64,000 nt of DNA from Candidatus Vecturithrix granuli. Lineage in GTDB: Bacteria > Moduliflexota > Moduliflexia > Moduliflexales > Moduliflexaceae. A program made the position numbers and the translations under genes. Below, one piece after another: positions 20,203 to 35,900 of the stretch. Each line of letters starts with the position of its first letter. Position 1 is the stretch's first letter. The DNA lies in the NCBI GenBank assembly GCA_000739535.1, contig DF820472.1:1-64000 (forward strand). The letters run 5' to 3'. Below the pieces are notes generated by a model. That model ran no database searches, had not been told where the DNA came from, and saw nothing but the letters and a program-made list of their open reading frames with translations.

Positions 20203-23200
20203 ATGGCTTCAAAAAAACCGCTGGCTATTATCTACACCGAAGGTAAAACAGACTGGAAACATCTGAAAAAAGCACAAGAAAAACTGAGTATAGATATTCC
20301 GATTGCTTTCTATGAAAGTGAAGAGCCTTTGGGAAGTGGATACTTGCTGAATATGTGTCAATTTCTCTCAAAGAGGGTAGATAACGAACTGCCGGGCATT
20401 TGTCTTTTTGATCGTGATGAACCGCACATCTGTAAAAAGGTTGAGGGAAAGGATCAACCATACAAAGTATGGGATAACAAATACTTCTCTTTTGTATTAC
20501 CGATTCCTGAGCATCGAGAGGGATATGATGAAAATGTTTGCATCGAATTTTACTATACGGACGATGAACTTAGGACAAGAGATCAGAATGGGCGACGTAT
20601 CTTTTTATCTACCGAATTCAGTACACGCTCTAAACGGCATAAATACAATGACAATCTTGTGTTCGGGGGCGCTCTCAAAAAAGAAGCTGCAGAAGACGCC
20701 ACAAAAGCAAAAATAATTGATTCAGAAGTATTTGACCAGAACGACAATAATGTTGCCCTGTCCAAAGATGCCTTTGCAGAAAATATTCTCAATGATATTC
20801 CCCCATTCGATAATTTCAACTTCGAATCATTTAGAAAAGTTTTCGAGATCATTGAAGAAATCCTGCAAAAGGAAATTTTCCCTTCAGTGCAGCCTGACTC
20901 AAGAGAAGAAGAGCTTCCGTCCCGCTTTTTTATCGGCCGAGAGGAACAATTCGAATTATTCGAGAAGTATTTAAAACGGAATCAACCGATTTCGATTGAA
21001 GGGTTAGGCGGCATCGGGAAAACCGCGTTTGCAGAGAAATGTATTGAAAAATTCGGGCTTGCAGATCGGGCAGTCTGGTTCCCTTGCACACAAGATTCAA
21101 AACTTGATTCGCTCATTGAAATGGCTGGTTTTCCCGATCTACTGAAAATTGAAAAACTGCCAGAACTCGCAAAATACAGTGGGTTGACGAGCCTTCTTGA
21201 ACGCCATGAGAAAATCCTGTTTCTGGATGACTTTCAGGAAATTACCGATTCGTCCTTTACAAAATTTTTCCAATTTGCCGATAAACGCTTGCAAAACGCC
21301 AAAATCATTCTGATTGCCCGCGAACATCCTGAAATTCGAGTCTTAACTTTGCCAATCCGTTTACAAGGACTTGAGGATGACTACGCCTTTGAGTACGCAA
21401 AATATATTATCGAACACAATTATCCTGAACTCAACACCGATGAACAGGATCTACAAGCCATCGTTCAGCAAGTCAAAGGACATCCCTTAGCGATTGAACT
21501 CGCTATCTACCTGCTCGATTTCGGGACGTCACCAGAGCACTTCCTGCAAGCAATCGTTGAACACGAAAACGAAGAATTTCTAGCCCGCCGTTTACTCGAC
21601 GAAATTTTCAATCATCCCAAAAGTACCCAAGAAGAAAAAGAATTCATGCTCGCCTTTTCCGTCTTTCGCGGCAAAGTCAAGGAAGAGGCGTTCACGTATC
21701 TTTTTGAAGGCAAAGACGTGAATTCAACCATCCGCAGATTACGACGAAAGTTGATGCTGCTGTCTGAAGATGGATTCTATGAGACCCACCCCTTAGTGCG
21801 TGAATTCTGTTATGATCGGCTTGCAAACAAGCAAGAATGGCATAAAAAGGCGGCTGAATATTTTCAATCGCAGCGCACGGAACACCTCGATTCAGTGTTA
21901 GAAGAGACGATCTTCTATCATCTGAGCAGCAGTGAACAATGGCAAGTAATTATTGATCTGATCTGCGCCAGAGGAGAACAATTTATTCTTTCCGGATATA
22001 CAGATGTCTTAAAAGATATGCTGGATGTAAGCTGTAGACAGGGAAGGCATTCACCCCAATTCGATCTTTTTTACGGCGAGATTGCTGAAATTCAGGGGGA
22101 ATGGGATCAGGCCCTCCATTATTTCGAGCACGCCTTTTCTGCAACTGAGGCCGATGAAAAAATTCAAGCTCAGGGAAAGATACAATATGGTGAGATTCTT
22201 CGAAGCAAGGGGGATGTGAAAGCGTCCTTAGCCTATTTTGAGCAAGGCTATGAGATATGCAGAGCTATTCATTTTCAACGAGGTGAAGCCCGGAGCTTGG
22301 ACAATATTGGCTTAGCTTATAGATTTTTTGGAGATTTCGATGCTGCTAAGGCGAAAATCGAGGCAAGTCTGAAACTGAGACAACAGATGGGAAATATTTC
22401 AGATATTGCCGATTCTCTGAACAATTTGGGAGGTATTCTTGAAGAACAAGGGGATTTCGACGGCGCACGGACTCATTATCATCGTAGTTTCGCCCTATAT
22501 GAAGAGATTGATGCAAAATTCGGCATCGCAGTCTCACTTAATAATCTGGGATCGCTTCTTCGATCTCAATGTAATTTCGATGACGCAAGGCAACTCTATC
22601 AGCGTAGTCTCACTTTAAGTGAAGAGATAGGAGCAAAATTCGGCATCGCAGCCTCACTCAATAATCTGGGAGGACTTCTGGAAGCTCAAGGCGATTTTGA
22701 TGGCGCAAGGGAACTCTATCAGCGCAGTCTCACTTTAAGCGAAGAGATAGGAGCAAAATTCGGCATCGCAGCCTCACTCAATAATCTGGGATTGCTTCTT
22801 AAAGCTCAAGGGGATTTCGATGGTGCACAGGAACATTTTCAGCGCAGCCTTGCTTTACTTGAAGAGATGGAGGGAAAATTAGGAATTGCTAAAACTCTCT
22901 ACAATCTTGGAAGCCTTATCTATGATCAAAAGAGGAAAAATTATCCTCTCTCCTTACACTATTTTCTGAAATCATATATCCTTCAGCAACAGATTGAAAC
23001 TCCCAAAAAAGAAACAGAAAGATATATCGCCAACCTCAGAAGAAAATTAGGCTTGCAGCGTTTTACACATACGGTAGAGGACATTCTCCAACAGCTCTCT
23101 GATGACCAGAAACCCTATTTGAATGTTGATAAATTTCTACAAGATGACACAGTTCGCCGCACAGAACCAAAGGTCGGCCGAAATGATCCCTGCCCCTGCG

Positions 23201-23238
23201 GCAGCGGGAAGAAATATAAAAAATGCTGTGGGCGGTAA
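20203..23238 (+). CDS. TOPRIM-STAND(NB-ARC)-TPR-SEC-C protein
   Basis: Large 1011-aa signal-transduction NTPase, cytoplasmic. Residues 1-100 look like a TOPRIM nuclease/primase domain: IIYTEGKTD (Glu 13) and CLFDRDE (Asp 70, Asp 72). From about 240 comes a STAND/NB-ARC core: FFIGREEQF, Walker [10 protein letters not shown] (267-275), Walker [11 protein letters not shown] (337-346), [12 protein letters not shown], then a winged-helix region. TPRs follow from about 640, several of 40 residues and nearly identical ([17 protein letters not shown]). The end is a SEC-C zinc motif, [19 protein letters not shown]. Such proteins sense a ligand via repeats, oligomerise with ATP and fire the N-terminal effector; here a TOPRIM replaces the usual TIR, nuclease or protease. 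ATG 20203 (after AGGA) is preferred to GTG 20197. It starts the run of three genes with HEPN-like and helicase proteins. Defence function is inference. Confidence 0.85.
22500..22870 (+). repeat. Tandem TPR-encoding 120-bp repeats
   Basis: Three consecutive 120-bp units (one 40-aa TPR each) are highly similar in DNA, sharing AAATTCGGCATCGCAG and CACTCAATAATCTGGGA. The sensor part has recently grown or shrunk by unequal recombination. Confidence 0.85.
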
Positions 23239-23289
23239 TCCCAAATTTTTTGAGGAATTGTCCGTCATATAGTATTGAGGTTAATAACT

Positions 23290-24078
23290 ATGGATTTATC
23301 AAAAGAAAAACAAATAGAAATTCAAGCCAAACTACCACAAATTACTGAAATACAACGTCGACTTTTATTACCTGTGGATATATTAGCCATGAAAATAGGG
23401 CCATATAAGAACATAGAAAGTGCAATAGTATGTTTAAGGGATGCCAGTACTGTGGCTACTGAGGCTGTTTATGCCTTATCTCAAGCCTACCTTCATTTAT
23501 TTTGGTATAGAGAAGAACATCCTGATGCTCCTCTTGAAAAGGAGGCTTGTGCCTATTGCAAATTCTATATTGATGATGTTGCATTACGGCTTTATGCAGC
23601 AGCAGAACATCTTGCGAACTTCGTTATAGCTTTTCTCAATATAGAAAAGAGCAAATTAAAGCAATGCAAAACAAAGAAACCAAGCTCTTTAGCTTCAAGG
23701 GTTGGTAAATATATGTTTGCCGAAATGCCTACTCATGATATAACTGTTAGTATCAAAAAGTTAAAAGACGACAAAAATTGGGAAGAAATTATGACATACC
23801 GGAATAATTGGGTTCATGAACAACCCCCATTAGTAGATGGATTAGGCATTGTTTATGAAAGAAAATCAAGATGGAGAACAACAGATAATGGCGTGGGCCT
23901 TTTTGGCGGAGGTGATCAACCCAAACATTCTATTGATTCATTGCTTACTATGGTGTCATCTGCCTCACATGCTTTTGTAAATCTTTTATCAGAATTATCA
24001 GATATTCTTTTTGCTCATCTCAGAGATTTTGGAATAGACTTTGACCAGAATACGGGGAAACCTAAATTCAACTTATAG
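23290..24078 (+). CDS. HEPN-like protein with R-x4-H motif
   Basis: Uncharacterised 262-aa, alpha-helical, AT-rich gene. Near the middle it has MTYRNNWVHEQPP, in which Arg 171 and His 176 form the R-x4-H motif of HEPN ribonucleases, set in a helix as expected. The N-terminal half contains helices with CAYCKFYIDDVALRLYAAAEHLANFVI, also HEPN-like. It lies 51 bp after the TOPRIM-STAND gene and 41 bp before the helicase. HEPN RNases are frequent effectors or toxins in defence loci, so it may be an RNA-cutting component; it could instead be a non-catalytic HEPN. ATG 23290 is chosen over the TTG at 23275. Confidence 0.55.
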   Translation: MDLSKEKQIEIQAKLPQITEIQRRLLLPVDILAMKIGPYKNIESAIVCLRDASTVATEAVYALSQAYLHLFWYREEHPDAPLEKEACAYCKFYIDDVALRLYAAAEHLANFVIAFLNIEKSKLKQCKTKKPSSLASRVGKYMFAEMPTHDITVSIKKLKDDKNWEEIMTYRNNWVHEQPPLVDGLGIVYERKSRWRTTDNGVGLFGGGDQPKHSIDSLLTMVSSASHAFVNLLSELSDILFAHLRDFGIDFDQNTGKPKFNL

Positions 24079-24119
24079 GATATTACGATTAAATTTACAA
24101 CCATTCTACCACACATATT

Positions 24120-26753
24120 ATGAAAAAAACAGTTTATTATGTGTTTATCCTGCTGCTTATCGTAAGTTTCATTTCAACTGCTGAAATAACTTTTGCGTTC
24201 TGGCCGTTTGGGAACAATGAGGGAGAGCTTCAAAAGAGCCGCGAGCAGTTAGAGAAGGATCTGGAACTGGCTGAAAAACAACGATTGAAAGCAGAGGCCC
24301 AACTTCAAGAACAGCAGCAGGCGTTCAAACAACTTCAGGAACAAGTACAACAGCAGAAAGAACTTGAACGCCAGCTTGAAACGCTTAAACAGCAACTTCA
24401 GACAGAAATGCAGCAGAATGAGGAGTATCAGCAGCAAATTGAGCAACTTCAGCAGAGGCGTTTTTCGCCGATGTGGCTATCGCTGTCGGGACTGCTTTTT
24501 ATTGCATACAGGGTCGGAGTTGCGCGAGGAACGTCGCGCAAACGTCAGACAGCAAATACGCCACCTTCAACAACACCGAGTACAGAATCCTCCCGGCAAA
24601 AGGCTCAAACAGAGGAGTTTGTCACGCCGCCCCAGCCTGCCCCCGAAGAGCCGTCCCCTCCGCCCGTCTTGAGAGGATTTTCCCTGTCGCCGGAGCTTAT
24701 ACAGAAGATCAAACGCGAAATTCCTCAGAGAACCGGCAAAACTCCGACGGACAGTCAGTGGAACATGATTTTGTCCACCTCACCCAATACCTATGTCGTT
24801 GCAGGGGCCGGTTCGGGAAAATCCACTTCGCTGATTCTGCGCGTATTGGTGCTCAATCATTATCTGCACATCCCCTTGCAACAGGTGACGGTGTTTTCCT
24901 TTACCAGGGAATCCACCAGAGAATTCCGCAGCAAGCTGCGCGAGGTGTTTCAGGCTTACGGGAAACAGGTCAGCGAACGGGAAGCGACGCAGATAGTCCG
25001 CACATTTCATTCCAAAATTCTGGAGCTGGCGCGCGGGAAATTTCCACAAGCCACGTTGTTTGAATTTCTGGCGCAAAAAAACGATCTCGGAGAAGGAGGG
25101 ATCTTTGAAAGCTCCCTCAACGACAGCCAGGAACAGTATCTCAAAGAACTGTATAAAGAGCTGTTCCACAGCCATACAGAGTTTCACGACCTGATTCTGA
25201 GCTTGTATCATGAGTATCTGCAAGGGCAGGATCTGGGGATAAAAAGCTATTCCGAGGGGGTGCTTTCGCTGGCAGCCGCACGAGACCTGGCGGTCACGCA
25301 GGCGGTGGACGGAGTGTTCGATTTACCCGGCAGCGACAACAGGCCGACGCCATTTCCGTTGAGTAAGCTGTATCAGCATATCACATTCTACGCCAATGCC
25401 TATCTCCCCGAACTAGATCAATATATTGTCTCTATCCCGCAAGCCGCCTTGTTAGGGGAACGCAAAGAAATGCAGATTCACAATTTCCCTCTGGGATCCG
25501 GGTTATCGGTCAAAAAAAACATTCTGCTCAAATATTCCGACGCCCATATCCGCTTCATCCATCATGAGCGCGATCTGAATCTGCTGCGTGAGGAAATCAC
25601 CTGGTTTCAGCAGGACGGACACAAATTTACGCCGGTATTCGACTATTCCATTGAAGGGGAAATCACGTCTGCGGTCGTCTGGGAAACCTTTTACGCGGTG
25701 GCGATGTTTGCGGAAAGCATGGGGCTTGAGGTTCAGGATTTACACAAGATTGCAGGACATGACCAGCTTTCAGCGACGGATACAGCCTTTATCAAGGCTC
25801 TGATGATCTTCTGGAAAGCCTTTGATGCGAAGCTTGCCTCTGACCGGATGTTTCGCTTTCATCACCTTTTCACCTTTCTTTCGGAAAAGCACGCCGAGAA
25901 TTTCACTCGACTTTCCCGCAGTATGCTCGATTCAATGGCGCATATCTTGATTGATGAATTTCAAGATATTTCGCCGGAAGTGGTGTCCTGGATTCGAGGC
26001 ACGGTTGACTTTTCGCGGTCGCGCCAGCACCCAACATCCTTGCTCTGCGTGGGGGATGATTGGCAATCTATTTACGGGTGGAAAGGCAGTTCTCCACGCT
26101 ACTTTATTGAGTATGAGAAAGAATTTCCGGCGGAACAGACCAGGCGCGTTGATATGATGGAAAATTTCCGTTCCTATCAGGAAATTATCGATCAGGCCGA
26201 GGACATTTTGACCGACGTGAAATATAAAATCCCCAAACACGGCAAAGCCATACGCGGTCGCGCCCCAGATCCGCAAAACACTGTACAGATCATTCGCACG
26301 GATGATGAAAACGAGATCAGTGTTACGATCCGGCAAATCTTGCGTGATGTCCACGATGCTGCCACGAGCGTGTTGATTATGGCGCGGGCCAATTGGGTGT
26401 TGAAACGCTTACGCGCTGAATTTCGCGGCGCCAGGAATGTTAAAATCCTGACCTATCATCAAAGTAAAGGGTTGGAAGCTGACATCTGTATTTTAGTCGG
26501 CGATTGTCTGTACAACAGCACCATTCCGTTGAAAAATCTCATCTACGAACTCGCTGGCTGTTCCCAGACGTATGATGAAGCTCAAACCGAAGAAGCCCTG
26601 CGCCTGGCGTATGTGGCTGTTACCCGCGCCTGCAACCGCTGCTATTGGCTGGCAGTTCCCAAAGCCGGCGGAGCAGTCTTTCGCCTGATCCATGAAGAAG
26701 AGGACCAAGACACAAAAGGTGTTTTCCACGTCAAAGCAGTCAAAGCCGGTTAA
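24120..26753 (+). CDS. UvrD/Rep-type SF1 helicase with membrane/coiled-coil N-terminus
   Basis: 877 aa. Residues 1-27 form a signal-like membrane segment (YYVFILLLIVSFISTAEITF), 36-112 a Gln/Glu-rich coiled coil, about 117-136 a second hydrophobic segment (WLSLSGLLFIAYRVGVA), then a Pro-rich linker to about 185. A complete SF1A motor follows: Q motif TDSQWNMI, Walker A AGAGSGKST (about 228), Ia FSFTREST, II LIDEFQD (612-616), III CVGDDWQSIYGWKG, V YHQSKGLEADICIL and VI AYVAVTRACNRCYW. It should unwind DNA 3'-5'. A helicase tethered to the inner membrane is unusual; the N-terminal module would place it near incoming DNA. No Cas4-like or RecB nuclease is fused. No ribosome site is visible before ATG 24120, but the hydrophobic start supports it. 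Confidence 0.85.
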   Translation: MKKTVYYVFILLLIVSFISTAEITFAFWPFGNNEGELQKSREQLEKDLELAEKQRLKAEAQLQEQQQAFKQLQEQVQQQKELERQLETLKQQLQTEMQQNEEYQQQIEQLQQRRFSPMWLSLSGLLFIAYRVGVARGTSRKRQTANTPPSTTPSTESSRQKAQTEEFVTPPQPAPEEPSPPPVLRGFSLSPELIQKIKREIPQRTGKTPTDSQWNMILSTSPNTYVVAGAGSGKSTSLILRVLVLNHYLHIPLQQVTVFSFTRESTREFRSKLREVFQAYGKQVSEREATQIVRTFHSKILELARGKFPQATLFEFLAQKNDLGEGGIFESSLNDSQEQYLKELYKELFHSHTEFHDLILSLYHEYLQGQDLGIKSYSEGVLSLAAARDLAVTQAVDGVFDLPGSDNRPTPFPLSKLYQHITFYANAYLPELDQYIVSIPQAALLGERKEMQIHNFPLGSGLSVKKNILLKYSDAHIRFIHHERDLNLLREEITWFQQDGHKFTPVFDYSIEGEITSAVVWETFYAVAMFAESMGLEVQDLHKIAGHDQLSATDTAFIKALMIFWKAFDAKLASDRMFRFHHLFTFLSEKHAENFTRLSRSMLDSMAHILIDEFQDISPEVVSWIRGTVDFSRSRQHPTSLLCVGDDWQSIYGWKGSSPRYFIEYEKEFPAEQTRRVDMMENFRSYQEIIDQAEDILTDVKYKIPKHGKAIRGRAPDPQNTVQIIRTDDENEISVTIRQILRDVHDAATSVLIMARANWVLKRLRAEFRGARNVKILTYHQSKGLEADICILVGDCLYNSTIPLKNLIYELAGCSQTYDEAQTEEALRLAYVAVTRACNRCYWLAVPKAGGAVFRLIHEEEDQDTKGVFHVKAVKAG

Positions 26754-26767
26754 ATGTAGATTGTAAA

Positions 26768-26793
26768 TGCGTGAAACTGGAGTTTCACGTTAC
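26768..26793. repeat. Palindromic leader repeat, single copy A3
   Basis: GCGTGAAACTGGAGTTTCACG, one half of the paired repeat, followed by TTACATTTCACGGAGAAG and ATG 26812. Compensating changes (T and A in the outer stem) keep the hairpin while altering the sequence. Confidence 0.8.
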
Positions 26794-26811
26794 ATTTCAC
26801 GGAGAAGCAAT

Positions 26812-26955
26812 ATGGGACTCGTTAAATTTCTCTTCGGCTTGTTTCTGCTGCTGCTTACGCTGGCGGCGTGGCCGCTCGTGTTGGTTGTGTTCATCGTCTG
26901 AGGGATCTTCAAGGGCTTGATGATGGTCGGCATGGATAAGGATTTTGAGCCGTGA
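26812..26955 (+). CDS. Small membrane protein, possibly 48 codons with internal TGA
   Basis: ATG 26812, after GGAG, opens MGLVKFLFGLFLLLLTLAAW and continues VLVVFIV to a TGA at 26899-26901. This is a single membrane helix of 29 aa. The frame goes on after TGA with GIFKGLMMVGMDKDFEP and stops at 26953. The continuation is amphipathic and protein-like, so the TGA may be a recent nonsense change at a Trp codon. Function unknown; it sits between the helicase and an antitoxin gene. Confidence 0.45.
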
Positions 26956-28481: not shown

Positions 28482-28785
28482 ATATATCTCCTTGATATGT
28501 TTGTATCAACAAAGATTTTCATAATCCTTGATCCGTTCATCAATCATCTTTCCGCCTTCAGGCAGAAAACGCGCTAAAGCGCGAACTACGAACCCGTCAA
28601 CTAAAACTTGTCAAACCAGTAGTTTTCAACCGGAAATCTGTCAAGCAGAACTTCGTTGTTGAAAAAATTTCTGTCTCAATAAGAAATGCTTGACATCTTC
28701 ATCAAAACATTTTAAAGCATAGCGGGAAATATAAAATTTGTCAAATAACGTCGGTCACGTTCTGGTGAAGGAGGGAACGTCTATC
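28482..28785. other. Divergent promoter region
   Basis: AT-rich gap between divergent genes. A TTGACA at 28690-28695 faces the macroglobulin gene, with TAAAGC as the best -10 at 17-nt spacing (weak). A short palindromic CGCGCTAAAGCGCG stands near 28570, beside CGAACTACGAAC as at 2530. No gene is seen. Confidence 0.4.
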
Positions 28786-31700
28786 ATGAGAAAAATCACA
28801 GTTCTATTGCTTGTGCTTGTGTTGACCTGTCCGCTGGCCGGATTTGCAGCGGAAGAATTGAAAATCATTTCGTCCACGCCGCAGGGTGATCTGAATTCCT
28901 TAGATGACGCCAAAGCCATTACGATCACCTTTAATTATCCGATAACTGCGCTTTCCGGCGTGGAAAAAGATCTGCGAGAAGGCCCGCTTTCGATCGAACC
29001 AAAGGTCAATGGGATCTACCGTTGGATGGGAACATCCACTTTAAGTTTTATCCCGGATGAATCGCTAATGTATGGCACGCGCTATGTGGTGCAGGTGAAC
29101 GCCCCGATCACTGCGATTGGCGGCGAAGTCATGGGAAAATCGGCTAGTTTTTCTTTTGTCACGCCGCGTCCGCAGGTACAGCAGGTCTATCCCTACCAGG
29201 AGCAAGACCAGGTGACTTTGCAGCAAACCCTGTTCATGCTTTTTGATCAACCCATGGATCCTCAAAAAGCTGCCCAGTTTTTGACATTAACCAGCGAAAC
29301 TGGCTCTGAAGTACCGCTCAGCGTTTCCTATGTTGATAAAGCCGACGTGGAAGAACGCCAGGTGTACTGGGTTGATGAAATCTCTGAAAAGATTCTGAAA
29401 ATTATTCCCCAAAAGCCGCTGTCCATGGAAACCGGTTACACTCTGAAAGCCAAAGCCGGCTTGCCCGGAAAAGAAGGCAACCTCGGCATGGAACAAAGCT
29501 ATGAACTGAAATTCAGAACCTATAACCACTTTCGCGCCGAAGGCGTCAACCCGGGTAGTTGGCAGTGCAGCGATCAGTATTATCCTGAATTCGGCGTACG
29601 TATTCTGTTCAGCAATCCGGTGAATCGGGAGAACTTGCTGAAACATCTGCACTTTACGCCAGAAGTCAAGATGAGCAGCGATGAAGACTACTGGTATGAT
29701 TCTACAGAATTCGTGTTGTCTCCGAATCTCCAGCCCAATACGGACTATACGCTCACAATTGACGCGGAATTACAAGATAAATACGGCAATTCTCTGGGGC
29801 AGGCGGTCACCTTTACATTTAAGACGGTTGATTACGCGCCCTATCTCTCCATGCCCTCAGGGCGAGTGATTGCTGAAGCCTACCTCGGTTCGCGTTTTCC
29901 GGTGAAAGTGATGAATGTCTATAACGCGCCGTTTACCATGAAAGCCTATCGTACGCCTGAGGACATTATAAAAGCGGTCAAAGCCATGTCAGAATGGGAT
30001 TTTCAGGTTAGTGATCCAGATGTGAGCCGCGAATATCAGCCGAATATCCTGCCGAACAAAGTTGCCATGATGCCTTTTGATCTGAGCGAAGTGCTGCACG
30101 AAGGCGAAACCACTGGCGTGATCGGTCTGAGTATGCAGTTTTATGATTGCATCAACGAGCTACACGATTATAATACCCTCATTTTTCTGACCAATATTTC
30201 AGCCACAGCAAAATTCTCCGCGATCAATAATGTGTTCTGGGTCACGCGTCTCGAAGATGCTGGCGCAGTGGAAGGCGCGGAGATCGAACTGTACGACGCG
30301 AACCAGAAATTCCTCTGGAAGGGTGTCACCAATGCCGAAGGCTTTTTAGAAAGTCCGGGCTGGAAGGAATTGGGTTTGAAAGCGACCGATTCCTGGGAGC
30401 AGCCCTGGGTTTTTGCGCTTGTGCGCTCCGGCGACGATCAGGTTGTCATTCATTCACGCGATGGTACGGGCATCTGGCCTTATCGTTTCGGAATTGATTA
30501 TCGCCAGAACGTCGAACATCTGACAAACGATGGCTATATTTTTACCGAACGCGGCATCTACCGTCCGGGCGAAGAAGTGCGCATTGTCGGCATTGTACGC
30601 GACAAAGCGGCCGGAGAATTTGTCACGCCCGAAGCCTTAGAGGTCGAGGTGAAAGTGACCGATCCCGAGGATAAAGAAATTTTCAAGCAAAACATGAAGC
30701 TCTCAGAATTCGGGGCTTTTCATTTTCCGCTGCAATTAGCTGGAAACGCCAAAATCGGCACCTATTGGATTGAATGTATCTTCCCAATCCCGGAATATCT
30801 GGATTTACCCAAAGATGAATTAGAGTGGCTGGATAATTCGGTCAGCGGCAGTTTTCGAGTCGAGATGTACCGTCCGGTCGAATTTGAAGTCAACATTGAC
30901 ACACCGCAAACCGAATACATCAAAGGCGATGCGGCCAGCGCTAACATCAAAGCCAGCTATCTCTTCGGAGGTGCGTTGCGCAATGTGCCGGTTGAGTGGA
31001 ATCTGAGCCGCAGCCTCTATTATTTTGCGCCTGAAGACCCGCAATTTGCCGGCTATGCGTTTAATGTGTATGACCGTCCCGGCGGCGACCATGTTGCTCA
31101 AAAAACCGAAAGACTCGACGATAACGGGGAATATCGTTTTGAATATACCTTAACCGATTCCGATTTCGGCCCCTATTCCTACAGTCTGGATGCCACCGTC
31201 ACCGACGTCAACAAACGCCAGGTTTCGAAACGCAAAACCTTGATTGTGCATGGTGGCGAATATTACATCGGCTTGAAGCTGGAAAGCTTTTTCGCGGCCT
31301 CCGGCGAAGATTTTACGCTCACCACAGTAGCAATTACCCCGGATGAAACTCTGTTGGCCGGCCAGAACTATCAGGTACAGGTTAAGCGCATCTGGTGGGA
31401 ATCGGTGCGTCGCGCCGGAAACGGCGGCAGGTTGTACTGGGAATCGGAACAAAAAGAGGAAGTGGTTCAGGAATTTCAGGTACAGAGCGGATTTGAACCG
31501 ACCGCGCTGACCTTCCCCATCGAAAAGGTCGGATATTACAAAATAGAAGCCAAAGGCAGCGATAGTCGCAGCAACGCCATCCGGTCGGAAGATTATTTTT
31601 ACGCTATCGGCTCTGGCTATGCGGCCTGGCTGCGGGAAGATGATGATTATGTCGAACTGACGCCAAATGCTGAACGCTATCAACCGGGCGATACAGCCAG

Positions 31701-34398
31701 AATTTTGGTGAAATCACCGTATGAATCGGTCAAAGCTCTGGTCACGGTTGAACGCGAAGGTGTCATTGAACGTTGGGTGCAAACCATCGAAGGCAGCGCA
31801 GACACGATTGACATTCCGATCAAATCGGAATACATTCCGAATGTTTATGTTGGCGTCATGCTGATTCAAGGACGACTGACCTATGATAAGATCGAAGATG
31901 AACTGGATCTGGGCAAACCAGGCTTTAAAATTGGTTATACCGGCTTTCAGGTCAATCCGTCCGAACGACATTTGCAGGTTAATGTCACGCCGGATCGCGA
32001 AGAATATCGTCCAGGCGAAGAGGTGGAACTCAACCTGCAAGTGACCAATAAAGACGGCGTGGGACAGTCTGCGGAAGTCGTGGTTTCTGTCGTAGATGTG
32101 GGCGTATTGAATCTGATTAACTACGCCACGCCCGATCCCTTCGACTATTTTTATCGTTCTCGCGCTTTGGGCGTGTTAACCTCGGAATTGCGCACCAGCA
32201 TTGTCGGACAGCGGAATTACAGCGAAAAAGGTGAACGCAAACCCGGTGACGGACTTGACATGGCGGCCATGATGAAACTGATTGAACTGCGCGAGAAATT
32301 TAAACCGACCGCCTATCATAATCCTGAAGTGCGCACCGACACCAACGGCCGCGCCACCGTGCGGTTTACCCTGCCGGATAATCTGACTTCTTTCCGGATT
32401 ATGGCGACCGCGCATACGAAAGATTCACTTTTCGGAGCTGGCGACAAACGGATTAAGGTGAATAAAAATCTGATGCTCACCTCATCCTTGCCGCGATTCT
32501 TGCGCATCGGCGATACGATTCAGGCCGGGATTCTGGCGCACAATCGTACGCAAAACGATGGCGATGCGGCAATTCAAACCGAAACTGAGGGCGTGATGCT
32601 GGCAAGCCCTGACCTTCAGCAGATCAGGCTGCCAAAAGATGATAAACACGAGGTGTTGTTTACCTATAAGGCGCCGGATCAAGAACAGGATGCAACCTTT
32701 ATTTTCCGGGGCAAAATGGAAGACGAAAGCGACGGATTGAAAGTCAGCATCCCCGTCTTGCTGCACAGGTTGCCCTTAACAACCGCCTTGTTTGGCAATA
32801 CCACGCAGGACTGGCACCGCGAATTTGTCACTGTGCCGGAAGATGCGGTACCGGGTTGGGGCAATGTCCAACTCTCGCTGGCTTCGACCATGTTTACCGA
32901 CATCAAAGGCGGCGTGGATTTTCTGTTCGGCTATCCTTATGGCTGTCTGGAACAAAAAATTTCGCGTATCCTGCCGATGATTCTGGCCGAAGACCTGATT
33001 AGCGCGTTTGATCTCGACGTTCTGCAAGGCGACGATTATAAGGCCGTTGTGCAGAAAACTCTGGATGAATTCTCTTCTTTCCAACATGACAATGGCGGAT
33101 TTGGCTATTGGAAACGTCCGTATTCACCATCGCCTTTTGTCTCAGCGTATGCCGTCTTCACTCTGGCAATGGCGAAAAAGGCCGGGTATACAGTGGATGA
33201 AGAAGTTGAACAAAAAGCAGTGACCTATCTGGAAAATGTGCTCAAAGGGCAAAACGAACGCGCCACGATTTATCGTTACAACGAATTAGCCTGGAATACG
33301 ATTGATGCCTTTATCCTTTCCACGCTGGCCTTGTACGACAAATATCAGCCGGCGTATGCCACGCGGCTTTACGAAGTGCGTGACCGGCTGCCGGTGTTTG
33401 GCAAAGCCTTGCTGCTGAAAGCAGTACACCTTGGAAAAGGGACTGATCTGATCCGCAACACGCTGAAAGAAGAGTTATTGAATTCCGCCCGCATCGAAGC
33501 TCGCACCGCCTATTTTGAGGAAAAAGACGATGGCGGACTGGCCTGGATTCATCACTCTGATGTCCGCAGCACCGCAGCGGTGGCGCAGGCGTTAATGGAA
33601 GTTTATGGCGCAAGCGCAGAGAACGAAACCTTTATTCCGAAAGCGATTGAATGGCTGCTGCGACAAAGAAAACAGCAATCAGCCTGGCGCACCACGCAGG
33701 AAAACTTGTTTGTATTCTGGGCGCTTGCGACCTATCTGAATACCTTTGAAGCCACGGAGCCAGATTTTACCGGCAAAATCCTGGTCAATCGCAACGAAAT
33801 TCTCTCGGAATTATTCAAAGGCCGCACCACAAAAATTGCCACTCAGACCGTGCCGCTTGATCAGTTGCCCAAAGGCCAGGACAACCTGGTAGAATTTGCG
33901 AAAGAAGGCACAGGCCGCATGTATTACACTGCGGTGCTAACCTATCTGCCTTCAGGCGAGCCGGAGCCGATTGATTACGGAATTGCCGTGCAGAAATCAA
34001 TGACGGTTGTGAAAGGCAAGGGCAAAGGTACGGAAAACTTCTATCGCGGGGATCTGATCAAGGTGGAATTGACGATCACCACGCCGCGCGACCGCTTGTT
34101 TGTGTATGTGGATGATCCGCTTGCGTCCAGTTTTCAGGCCATCAACTTCAGTCTGAATACCACGGATCAGTCCTTACAAACATACATCAAGAACGATTCG
34201 CCTTTCCGTTACAGTGAATTTAAGGATGACCGCGTGGTATTTTACGCCGATTATCTGGATAAAGGCGTGCATCACATCTCGTATTTAGTGAGCGCGGAAC
34301 ACAGCGGCACGTTCAATCTGCCGCCGACCTTCTCGGCCGAAATGTACACGCCGGAAGTGTTCGGACAAACCGGGGCGGACGTGGTTAAAGTTGAGTAA
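28786..34398 (+). CDS. Bacterial alpha-2-macroglobulin with thioester
   Basis: Periplasmic protease trap of 1870 aa, which covalently captures attacking proteases when cleaved. MRKITVLLLVLVLTCPLAGFAAE is a signal peptide; LTC is a poor lipobox, so soluble or weakly anchored forms are both possible. Repeated macroglobulin (MG) domains follow, with TERGIYRPGEEVRI (MG2/MG3 hallmark) and a bait-like stretch. The thioester motif YGCLEQ (Cys about 1387) is intact and followed by an alpha-alpha toroid (DNGGFGYWKR). ATG 28786 with AAGGAGGG is chosen over the frame opening at 28738. The usual partner penicillin-binding protein PbpC is not adjacent. Confidence 0.93.
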   Translation: MRKITVLLLVLVLTCPLAGFAAEELKIISSTPQGDLNSLDDAKAITITFNYPITALSGVEKDLREGPLSIEPKVNGIYRWMGTSTLSFIPDESLMYGTRYVVQVNAPITAIGGEVMGKSASFSFVTPRPQVQQVYPYQEQDQVTLQQTLFMLFDQPMDPQKAAQFLTLTSETGSEVPLSVSYVDKADVEERQVYWVDEISEKILKIIPQKPLSMETGYTLKAKAGLPGKEGNLGMEQSYELKFRTYNHFRAEGVNPGSWQCSDQYYPEFGVRILFSNPVNRENLLKHLHFTPEVKMSSDEDYWYDSTEFVLSPNLQPNTDYTLTIDAELQDKYGNSLGQAVTFTFKTVDYAPYLSMPSGRVIAEAYLGSRFPVKVMNVYNAPFTMKAYRTPEDIIKAVKAMSEWDFQVSDPDVSREYQPNILPNKVAMMPFDLSEVLHEGETTGVIGLSMQFYDCINELHDYNTLIFLTNISATAKFSAINNVFWVTRLEDAGAVEGAEIELYDANQKFLWKGVTNAEGFLESPGWKELGLKATDSWEQPWVFALVRSGDDQVVIHSRDGTGIWPYRFGIDYRQNVEHLTNDGYIFTERGIYRPGEEVRIVGIVRDKAAGEFVTPEALEVEVKVTDPEDKEIFKQNMKLSEFGAFHFPLQLAGNAKIGTYWIECIFPIPEYLDLPKDELEWLDNSVSGSFRVEMYRPVEFEVNIDTPQTEYIKGDAASANIKASYLFGGALRNVPVEWNLSRSLYYFAPEDPQFAGYAFNVYDRPGGDHVAQKTERLDDNGEYRFEYTLTDSDFGPYSYSLDATVTDVNKRQVSKRKTLIVHGGEYYIGLKLESFFAASGEDFTLTTVAITPDETLLAGQNYQVQVKRIWWESVRRAGNGGRLYWESEQKEEVVQEFQVQSGFEPTALTFPIEKVGYYKIEAKGSDSRSNAIRSEDYFYAIGSGYAAWLREDDDYVELTPNAERYQPGDTARILVKSPYESVKALVTVEREGVIERWVQTIEGSADTIDIPIKSEYIPNVYVGVMLIQGRLTYDKIEDELDLGKPGFKIGYTGFQVNPSERHLQVNVTPDREEYRPGEEVELNLQVTNKDGVGQSAEVVVSVVDVGVLNLINYATPDPFDYFYRSRALGVLTSELRTSIVGQRNYSEKGERKPGDGLDMAAMMKLIELREKFKPTAYHNPEVRTDTNGRATVRFTLPDNLTSFRIMATAHTKDSLFGAGDKRIKVNKNLMLTSSLPRFLRIGDTIQAGILAHNRTQNDGDAAIQTETEGVMLASPDLQQIRLPKDDKHEVLFTYKAPDQEQDATFIFRGKMEDESDGLKVSIPVLLHRLPLTTALFGNTTQDWHREFVTVPEDAVPGWGNVQLSLASTMFTDIKGGVDFLFGYPYGCLEQKISRILPMILAEDLISAFDLDVLQGDDYKAVVQKTLDEFSSFQHDNGGFGYWKRPYSPSPFVSAYAVFTLAMAKKAGYTVDEEVEQKAVTYLENVLKGQNERATIYRYNELAWNTIDAFILSTLALYDKYQPAYATRLYEVRDRLPVFGKALLLKAVHLGKGTDLIRNTLKEELLNSARIEARTAYFEEKDDGGLAWIHHSDVRSTAAVAQALMEVYGASAENETFIPKAIEWLLRQRKQQSAWRTTQENLFVFWALATYLNTFEATEPDFTGKILVNRNEILSELFKGRTTKIATQTVPLDQLPKGQDNLVEFAKEGTGRMYYTAVLTYLPSGEPEPIDYGIAVQKSMTVVKGKGKGTENFYRGDLIKVELTITTPRDRLFVYVDDPLASSFQAINFSLNTTDQSLQTYIKNDSPFRYSEFKDDRVVFYADYLDKGVHHISYLVSAEHSGTFNLPPTFSAEMYTPEVFGQTGADVVKVE

Positions 34399-34630: not shown

Positions 34631-34664
34631 ACTACTAAGACAGTATTGTTTTTGAAGAACGTTG

Positions 34665-35900
34665 ATGAAAAAAACAGAGGTTTTGGAAATCCTTCGAAAT
34701 GGAGAAAACTCCGGGGTAGAATTTAAACGTGACAGCATTGATAACGCCGCCTTAGCAAAAGAACTGGTCGCATTATCAAACGCCTGGGGCGGATACATTT
34801 TCCTGGGAGTTGATGATCAAGGAATAGTAGTCGGATTGACGCGCCCCAATCTTGAGGAATGGGTTATGACCACATGCCGGGATAAAATCCGTCCGGAAAT
34901 CATTCCGTACTTTGAAATTCTGCAAGATGTTGTTCCCGGAAAGAATATTGCCATCATCAAAGTTGAACGGGGCTGGACCGTGCATCACCGCTGGCATAAC
35001 AATCATCGTACCTATTATCTGCGGGTAGGCTCAGAAAGCCGTGAAGCCAGTCAGGAGGAATTGGGACGGCTCTTTCAGCAGCGAGGAGCGTTTCGGGTAG
35101 AAACGCGGTCGGTATCGGGCAGCAGCCTGAAAGATCTGGATCGGGAACGTTTAGAAGATTATTTCGGACGAGTTCGAGCCCAGGAAATCCCGGATTATGA
35201 CGATGAGACGAGTTGGCGAAAACTCCTCGTCAACACCGAAATGCTGAGTGATGAAAGCGAAAATTATCCCTGTACTATAGCCGGTTTGCTGCTTTTCGGA
35301 AAACAACCTCACCGTTTTTTGCCGCAGTCAGCAATTGAAGCTAATGCCTTTTCCGGCGTTGAAAAGGATTATGCTGCTATTGAACGCAGCACATTTCGCG
35401 GTCCAATTGTCGGATTATTCCGAAAGAAGGAATATGAACTTACCCTGGTTGATCCGGGGCTGATTGAAAAAGCCCTCAGCTTTGTGAGGCGTAATACCAT
35501 TCCAAGCGCAAAATTGCTGAACGGAACTGTGAGGGTGGATATACCCTGTTACCCTGACGACGTAATTCGAGAAGCCGTGGTCAATGCGATTGTGCATCGT
35601 GACTATTTATTGTCGGCGACCGATATTGAGCTTATGCTGTACGCCAATCGCCTGGAAATTATTTCACCCGGACAACTGCCAAACGGCGTCACGGTCGAAA
35701 AAATGAAAACCGGCTGCCGGGCGGCAAGAAATCAATTGTTGAAAGATGTGCTGCGAGATTACGGATACATGGAACATATCGGCATGGGCATCCCCAGAAA
35801 AATTATCAAAGGCATGAAAGCGCACAATGGGACAGAACCGGAATTGATTGCCGGTGAAGAAGAATTTCTGCTGCGCTTATCAGCGCGCAGCCCTGAGTAA
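34665..35900 (+). CDS. AlbA_2/Schlafen-like ATP-binding protein
   Basis: 411-aa cytoplasmic protein. The N-terminal AlbA_2 (Schlafen AAA_4) domain shows GENSGVEFKRD, ELVALSNAWGGYIFLGVDDQGIVVGL and IPYFEIL. The C-terminal half is the conserved HATPase_c_4-like region (IREAVVNAIVHRDYL, YANRLEIISPGQLP, HIGMGIPRKII). These proteins are called transcriptional regulators or RecG-related; some act in defence or tRNA/RNA cleavage. Role here is unknown. ATG 34665 follows the repeat closely. It converges on the Ser/Thr kinase. Confidence 0.85.
   Translation: MKKTEVLEILRNGENSGVEFKRDSIDNAALAKELVALSNAWGGYIFLGVDDQGIVVGLTRPNLEEWVMTTCRDKIRPEIIPYFEILQDVVPGKNIAIIKVERGWTVHHRWHNNHRTYYLRVGSESREASQEELGRLFQQRGAFRVETRSVSGSSLKDLDRERLEDYFGRVRAQEIPDYDDETSWRKLLVNTEMLSDESENYPCTIAGLLLFGKQPHRFLPQSAIEANAFSGVEKDYAAIERSTFRGPIVGLFRKKEYELTLVDPGLIEKALSFVRRNTIPSAKLLNGTVRVDIPCYPDDVIREAVVNAIVHRDYLLSATDIELMLYANRLEIISPGQLPNGVTVEKMKTGCRAARNQLLKDVLRDYGYMEHIGMGIPRKIIKGMKAHNGTEPELIAGEEEFLLRLSARSPE

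Follow-up and report, generated by a model that had tools for sequence, protein, structure and literature searches.

Three genes that follow one another closely on the forward strand of contig DF820472.1 raise the question of whether they constitute a single antiphage system, and of what the first of them, a multidomain protein, most likely does. A preliminary description of this DNA had put forward a candidate three-gene defence system composed of a TOPRIM-STAND-TPR-SEC-C protein, a HEPN-like protein, and a membrane-tethered UvrD helicase. The window, that is, the whole stretch analyzed, comprises the first 64,000 nucleotides of the contig. Its source assembly is an 8.4-Mb MAG of 21 contigs (completeness 93.8%, contamination 10.75%) with few relatives within the genome collection.

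Genes and surroundings of the locus

The ORF check bore out three co-oriented genes separated by gaps of 51 and 41 bp (Table 1). The surroundings were also as described, with toxin-antitoxin genes and gene debris represented by BrnT/BrnA, a Phd/YefM-like fragment, a truncated metallo-beta-lactamase, and a MazE/AbrB-like antitoxin. The interval 3′ of gene 3 (26771-26901) contains a perfect 8-bp inverted repeat, GTGAAACT-GG-AGTTTCAC, followed by a very hydrophobic 29-residue ORF with an SD-like sequence. Farther along, the window encodes a large bacterial alpha-2-macroglobulin carrying Big_5 domains (28738-34398) and, about 8 kb downstream, an AlbA/Schlafen protein with a RecG-like C-terminal domain (34662-35900).

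Table 1. Coordinates of the three genes and of the domains of gene 1, numbered along the window
Feature	Position	Strand	Basis
Gene 1, TOPRIM-NB-ARC-TPR-SEC-C protein, 1011 aa	20203..23238	+	ORF, SD-like AGAGGAAG upstream of ATG, Pfam, PADLOC
TOPRIM domain, aa 1-225, retron Ec67/Eco2 type	20203..20877	+	PADLOC, PDB profile match, invariant residues, AF2
NB-ARC/AP-ATPase switch and following helical region, about aa 240-560	20920..21882	+	PF00931, motif positions
TPR region, about aa 690-935	22270..23007	+	Pfam TPR_12 7.8e-48, TRF, unit identities
SEC-C zinc motif, aa 993-1011	23179..23235	+	PF02810 4.5e-10
Gene 2, helical protein, 262 aa, possibly HEPN (R171-N-x3-H176)	23290..24078	+	PF18730 3.8e-4, helical model
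Gene 3, UvrD/SF1A helicase, 877 aa, N-terminal hydrophobic segment, Gln/Glu-rich coiled coil	24120..26753	+	PF00580 6.8e-30, PF13361 2.1e-14

Gene 2 has an SD-like GAGGT upstream of its ATG and an alternative longer start, TTG, at 23275. The proposal that it is HEPN-like remains weak. The match to the HEPN family PF18730 falls below the curated cut-off; the R171/H176 motif is present with the preferred N following R, but it lies near chance, as any R-x4-6-H occurred in 65% of shuffled versions of the protein and R[NDH]x3-5H in 11%. A structure predicted without an alignment was helical with low confidence (pLDDT 55). Searches of 385 genomes, of 14 TOPRIM-bearing genomes, and of plasmids and viral contigs turned up no homolog of gene 2.

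Gene 3 is an SF1A helicase in which motifs I to VI are all present according to Pfam and motif positions. The description of two hydrophobic segments and a coiled coil stood for the coil and for the strong segment at residues 1-30, whereas the segment at 117-135 is marginal (Kyte-Doolittle mean 1.35). The Gln/Glu-rich coil lies between the two segments, and a topology with the coil outside and the helicase inside would be plausible. The N-terminal hydrophobic segment was absent from the three relatives whose N termini were inspected.

Domains of gene 1

A Pfam search assigned no family to the N terminus of gene 1. The C-terminal part of the PADLOC RT-Toprim_I-C model (positions 325-527), the effector part of retron Ec67/Eco2, matched residues 3-223 with an E-value of 9.9e-34. 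In an alignment of 49 TOPRIM sequences, residues E13, D17, D70, D72, E115, and K188 of gene 1 were invariant, and they are the equivalents of the mapped active-site residues of Eco2; C113 occupies the position equivalent to Eco2 S513. The Eco2 TOPRIM is an RNase with a site lined by E374, D378, D460, D462, S513/E515, and K562, at which alanine substitutions abolish defence, most of the RNase activity being lost in E374/D378 mutants (PMC12405507). When the profile of the 49 sequences was compared to the PDB, it matched only the solved Ec67 proteins 9lm3 and 9i2f (1.3e-5); a search of the PDB with the single gene 1 sequence gave no useful match. These results confirm the TOPRIM-like domain with E13 and D70-x-D72 that had been recognized previously, and extend it to a complete E..D/DxD/E/K site.

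The structural check of the fold was less decisive. AlphaFold2 produced a confident model of the domain (pLDDT 94, pTM 0.89), and OLD TOPRIM domains ranked at the top of a Foldseek search against the PDB with PARIS lower, but the matches were weak (E of approximately 0.01-0.1, TM of approximately 0.3), so the fold search supports the TOPRIM assignment without proving it. Judged by sequence, the assignment of this domain to the retron Ec67/Eco2 type is well supported. The genome of the window holds a single copy of a retron-type TOPRIM.

The NB-ARC-type switch was likewise confirmed. Residues 260-434 matched PF00931 (6.4e-8, above the Pfam cut-off), and the motifs of AP/NB-ARC ATPases occur in order, with the P-loop at 267, Walker B at 338, LIAR at 370, GHPLA at 426, and THPLV at 528, such that P-loop, Walker B, GxP-like, and MHD-like motifs are all present. 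Profile matches of gene 1 include AfsR and MalT. The closest relatives found for the switch are five paralogous NB-ARC-TPR proteins of a single genome (L116-L120 in G272), in which a C-terminal winged helix is apparent by eye.

In the TPR region, TRF identified 120-bp repeat units at 22436-22880. Neighboring units are 82-86% identical in DNA, indicating a recent expansion, as had been proposed, of the kind that a recognition surface undergoing change would show. The SEC-C zinc end was also verified. The final 23 residues of gene 1 are the same as the end of the host SecA (L002), and a recent copy of the end of host secA was ruled out because only 12 of the 23 codons are identical and 11 differ. 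There is thus good support for reading gene 1 as a STAND protein whose effector is a TOPRIM nuclease, and this effector can be named more specifically as that of the retron Ec67/Eco2 type.

Other proteins with the retron-type TOPRIM

A scan of 84,980 genomes for the TOPRIM confirmed 109 relatives, 80 of which were kept. On the basis of open frame and motif, half of these (40/80) showed an OLD-like layout with Walker A in the first 80 residues and a C-terminal TOPRIM, and eight (8/80) showed a reverse transcriptase layout with a YADD motif before the TOPRIM; L026, an OLD-layout relative tested directly by Pfam, contained AAA_21. Profile matches identified a NACHT protein (L098), a response-regulator receiver fused to the TOPRIM (L028:2202-3272), which suggests a phosphorylation-controlled nuclease, and an N6/N4 DNA methyltransferase fused to it (L037:7807-9633). 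A TmtA-like (Tiamat) Sacsin protein with an AlbA/Schlafen domain carries the TOPRIM at its C terminus (L092:5765-10660; TmtA, 914 bits) and is a possible effector-bearing Tiamat variant. L058 and L071 are further proteins of this make-up. Additional N- or C-terminal regions accompany the TOPRIM in L036:9455-10657, L043:9458-10657, L041, L045, L046, L083, and L023; those of L036, L043, L041, and L023 had no significant Pfam family.

A second TOPRIM-NB-ARC protein was found in a Myxococcota MAG (L024). Its N-terminal TOPRIM is 47% identical to that of gene 1 and is followed by an NB-ARC and a weak TPR match. About 340 additional residues separate the TOPRIM from the NB-ARC, and no SEC-C match was obtained. 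The gene is flanked by an S24-type repressor on one side and a phage integrase on the other, an interval in which phage-borne defence genes are often located. In a quick tree, the TOPRIMs of the window, L023, and L024 grouped together (SH-aLRT 93) adjacent to Chloroflexota retrons. The NB-ARC parts of gene 1 and L024 align poorly, so the proteins may stem from one TOPRIM-NB-ARC fusion or from two separate ones. In a further viral scan with an alignment of the window-L023-L024 type, the loci examined, which exclude L110 and L111, yielded no additional TOPRIM-NB-ARC protein.

At least seven different scaffolds carry the retron-type TOPRIM, which looks like an exchangeable defence effector; domain swapping on such a scale is how exchangeable immune effectors behave. 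TIR domains are likewise swapped between retrons and NLR-like proteins (PMC10952713). Separately, the PADLOC RT-TIR_XII models PDLC02961 and PDLC02962 matched the TOPRIM at 1e-8 to 1e-16, so that the C-terminal part of these models is possibly TOPRIM-like and not TIR.

Proposed function and comparison with known systems

We consider it fairly probable, from its domains and residues, that gene 1 encodes an NLR-like antiviral receptor in one polypeptide, with a TOPRIM nuclease as output; the protein probably represents a bacterial immune receptor of a new kind. While the cell is at rest, the NB-ARC would be in its closed state and the TOPRIM would be inactive. The TPR array, possibly assisted by the SEC-C zinc end, would recognize either a product of the phage or a disturbance that the phage brings about, and this trigger would lead to nucleotide exchange in the NB-ARC and to oligomerization. 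The clustered N-terminal TOPRIMs would then form an active Mg-dependent nuclease, with RNA as its most likely target, as for the Eco2 TOPRIM, and cleavage of RNA would be expected to stop translation, arrest growth, and abort the infection. Beyond the parts list and the residues, these steps are modeled on Eco2 and on known NLR-like proteins. The TOPRIMs of OLD and Gabija cut DNA (PMC10568477), so cleavage of DNA by gene 1 is also possible. The NLR-like receptor reading is favored by the Eco2-family TOPRIM, by intact site and NB-ARC residues, by the presence of this TOPRIM on known defence scaffolds, by the phage-like setting of the second fusion, by the low GC of genes 1 and 2, and by the single copy of the TOPRIM in the genome. 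Counting against it are the poor NB-ARC alignment with that fusion, the regulator-like NB-ARC relatives in G272, the weak fold matches to the PDB, and the contamination of the MAG. Somewhat short of an even chance, in our estimate, is the broader proposal that many immune scaffolds have the retron-type TOPRIM in common as a mobile effector cassette and that the TOPRIM-NB-ARC proteins of the window and L024 represent an undescribed class of RNA-cleaving bacterial NLR that would kill the infected cell.

As to the number of genes involved, the three-gene operon proposed at the outset, in which a STAND-TOPRIM sensor-nuclease would act with a HEPN RNase and a membrane-tethered helicase, found no support and is now quite unlikely. 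The shared strand and short gaps favor it, as does the pairing of TOPRIM proteins with UvrD helicases in Gabija; the best PADLOC match of gene 3 is indeed the GajB model (118.9 bits), with which any UvrD scores. However, the co-occurrence check found no relatives of gene 2 or gene 3 in the fetched loci bearing the retron-type TOPRIM, the relatives of gene 3 that were inspected occur as isolated genes on large plasmids of Pseudomonas and Klebsiella, and no clear SD precedes gene 3. Base composition also divides the genes, with a GC3 of 0.40 in gene 1 (0.36 in its TOPRIM part) and 0.25 in gene 2 versus 0.56 in gene 3, most neighbors being at 0.50-0.60. The low GC of genes 1 and 2 relative to their surroundings fits transfer, and these two genes look acquired while gene 3, with its host-like composition, does not; gene 3 is probably an unrelated neighbor. 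A two-gene unit, with gene 1 as the sensor and gene 2 as a HEPN RNase that would serve as a second effector or regulator, is more probable than that operon though still doubtful. The 51-bp gap, the SD ahead of gene 2, the shared low GC, and the weak HEPN match agree with it, and operons that join HEPN and TPR proteins have a precedent in the LA2681 family (PMC3710099), whereas gene 2 lacks homologs in all the collections searched, its HEPN motif is near chance, and the neighbors of L024 include no gene 2-like gene. Gene 2 may serve as an accessory that is transcribed together with gene 1.

The function of gene 1 could also lie outside antiviral defence. NB-ARC-TPR proteins form a general switch that is also found in regulators such as MalT and AfsR, both among the profile matches of gene 1, and the NB-ARC relatives in G272 resemble regulators with a winged helix, indicating that the switch of gene 1 is not specific to defence. 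A stress or developmental cell-death switch is nevertheless improbable in our assessment, given that the effector's family is linked with antiphage retrons and with a TmtA-type protein and that L024 has a phage-like context. Least probable is a decayed or chimeric recombination product of the debris zone with no function. Truncated genes lie close by and a single copy is known, but the 1011 codons are free of stops, the catalytic residues and switch motifs are all intact, and an SD is present.

The antiviral NLR-like reading of gene 1 was compared with known systems. In common with retron Ec67/Eco2 (type I-C, RT-TOPRIM), gene 1 has the same TOPRIM family and active-site residues; instead of a reverse transcriptase, it has an N-terminal TOPRIM under an NB-ARC-TPR controller. 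Membership of the retrons was ruled out, as Pfam and PADLOC scans, which covered gene 1 and a set of neighboring genes, revealed no RT family; an Rfam scan of the window gave zero matches and thus no retron RNA (msr-msd), although Rfam does not cover all retron RNAs. The locus resembles Gabija (GajA and GajB) in a TOPRIM-bearing ATPase near a UvrD-type helicase. However, the ATPase of GajA is ABC/OLD and that of gene 1 is NB-ARC, and GajB adjoins GajA, whereas gene 2 lies between gene 1 and gene 3, and the N terminus of gene 3 is of membrane type. Pfam found no AAA_15 or AAA_21 in gene 1, and membership of Gabija was ruled out for want of an ABC/OLD ATPase. The OLD family and PARIS AriB share the TOPRIM nuclease, and some relatives of the TOPRIM are themselves carried on ABC-type ATPases; such an ATPase is absent from gene 1, which, with no PADLOC Ari match, ruled out PARIS. 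The scaffold of the Tiamat-like protein L092, which couples TmtA similarity to the TOPRIM family of gene 1, is Sacsin-like and not NB-ARC. L024 shares the N-terminal TOPRIM and the NB-ARC, differing in its insertion, in its poorly alignable NB-ARC, and in the SEC-C end.

The main texts of two STAND-centred surveys of conflict systems contain zero mentions of TOPRIM (PMC7159879, PMC8195603), and no TOPRIM-NB-ARC protein was found described in the open-access literature, subscription papers and preprints being outside this scope; the novelty of the fusion is provisional. The retron-type TOPRIM provides an easy means of searching for other defence systems, and this nuclease shows the sharing between retrons and NLR-like proteins already known for TIR. 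If the function holds, a nucleic-acid-cutting TOPRIM joins the effectors of bacterial NLR-like proteins, and one effector could be compared under two very dissimilar controllers, the msDNA-RT and the NB-ARC. PADLOC models of Avs and NACHT gave no match to gene 1. Nevertheless, gene 1 has an N-terminal effector (TOPRIM) and a C-terminal repeat sensor (TPR) and follows the three-part layout, with a STAND switch between effector and repeat sensor, of bacterial NLR-like proteins (NACHT, Avs, TIR-NB-ARC), which carry TIR, Sir2, or other known effectors where gene 1 carries a TOPRIM. It is a real, unusual fusion that is best called a new variant among the bacterial NLR-like proteins.
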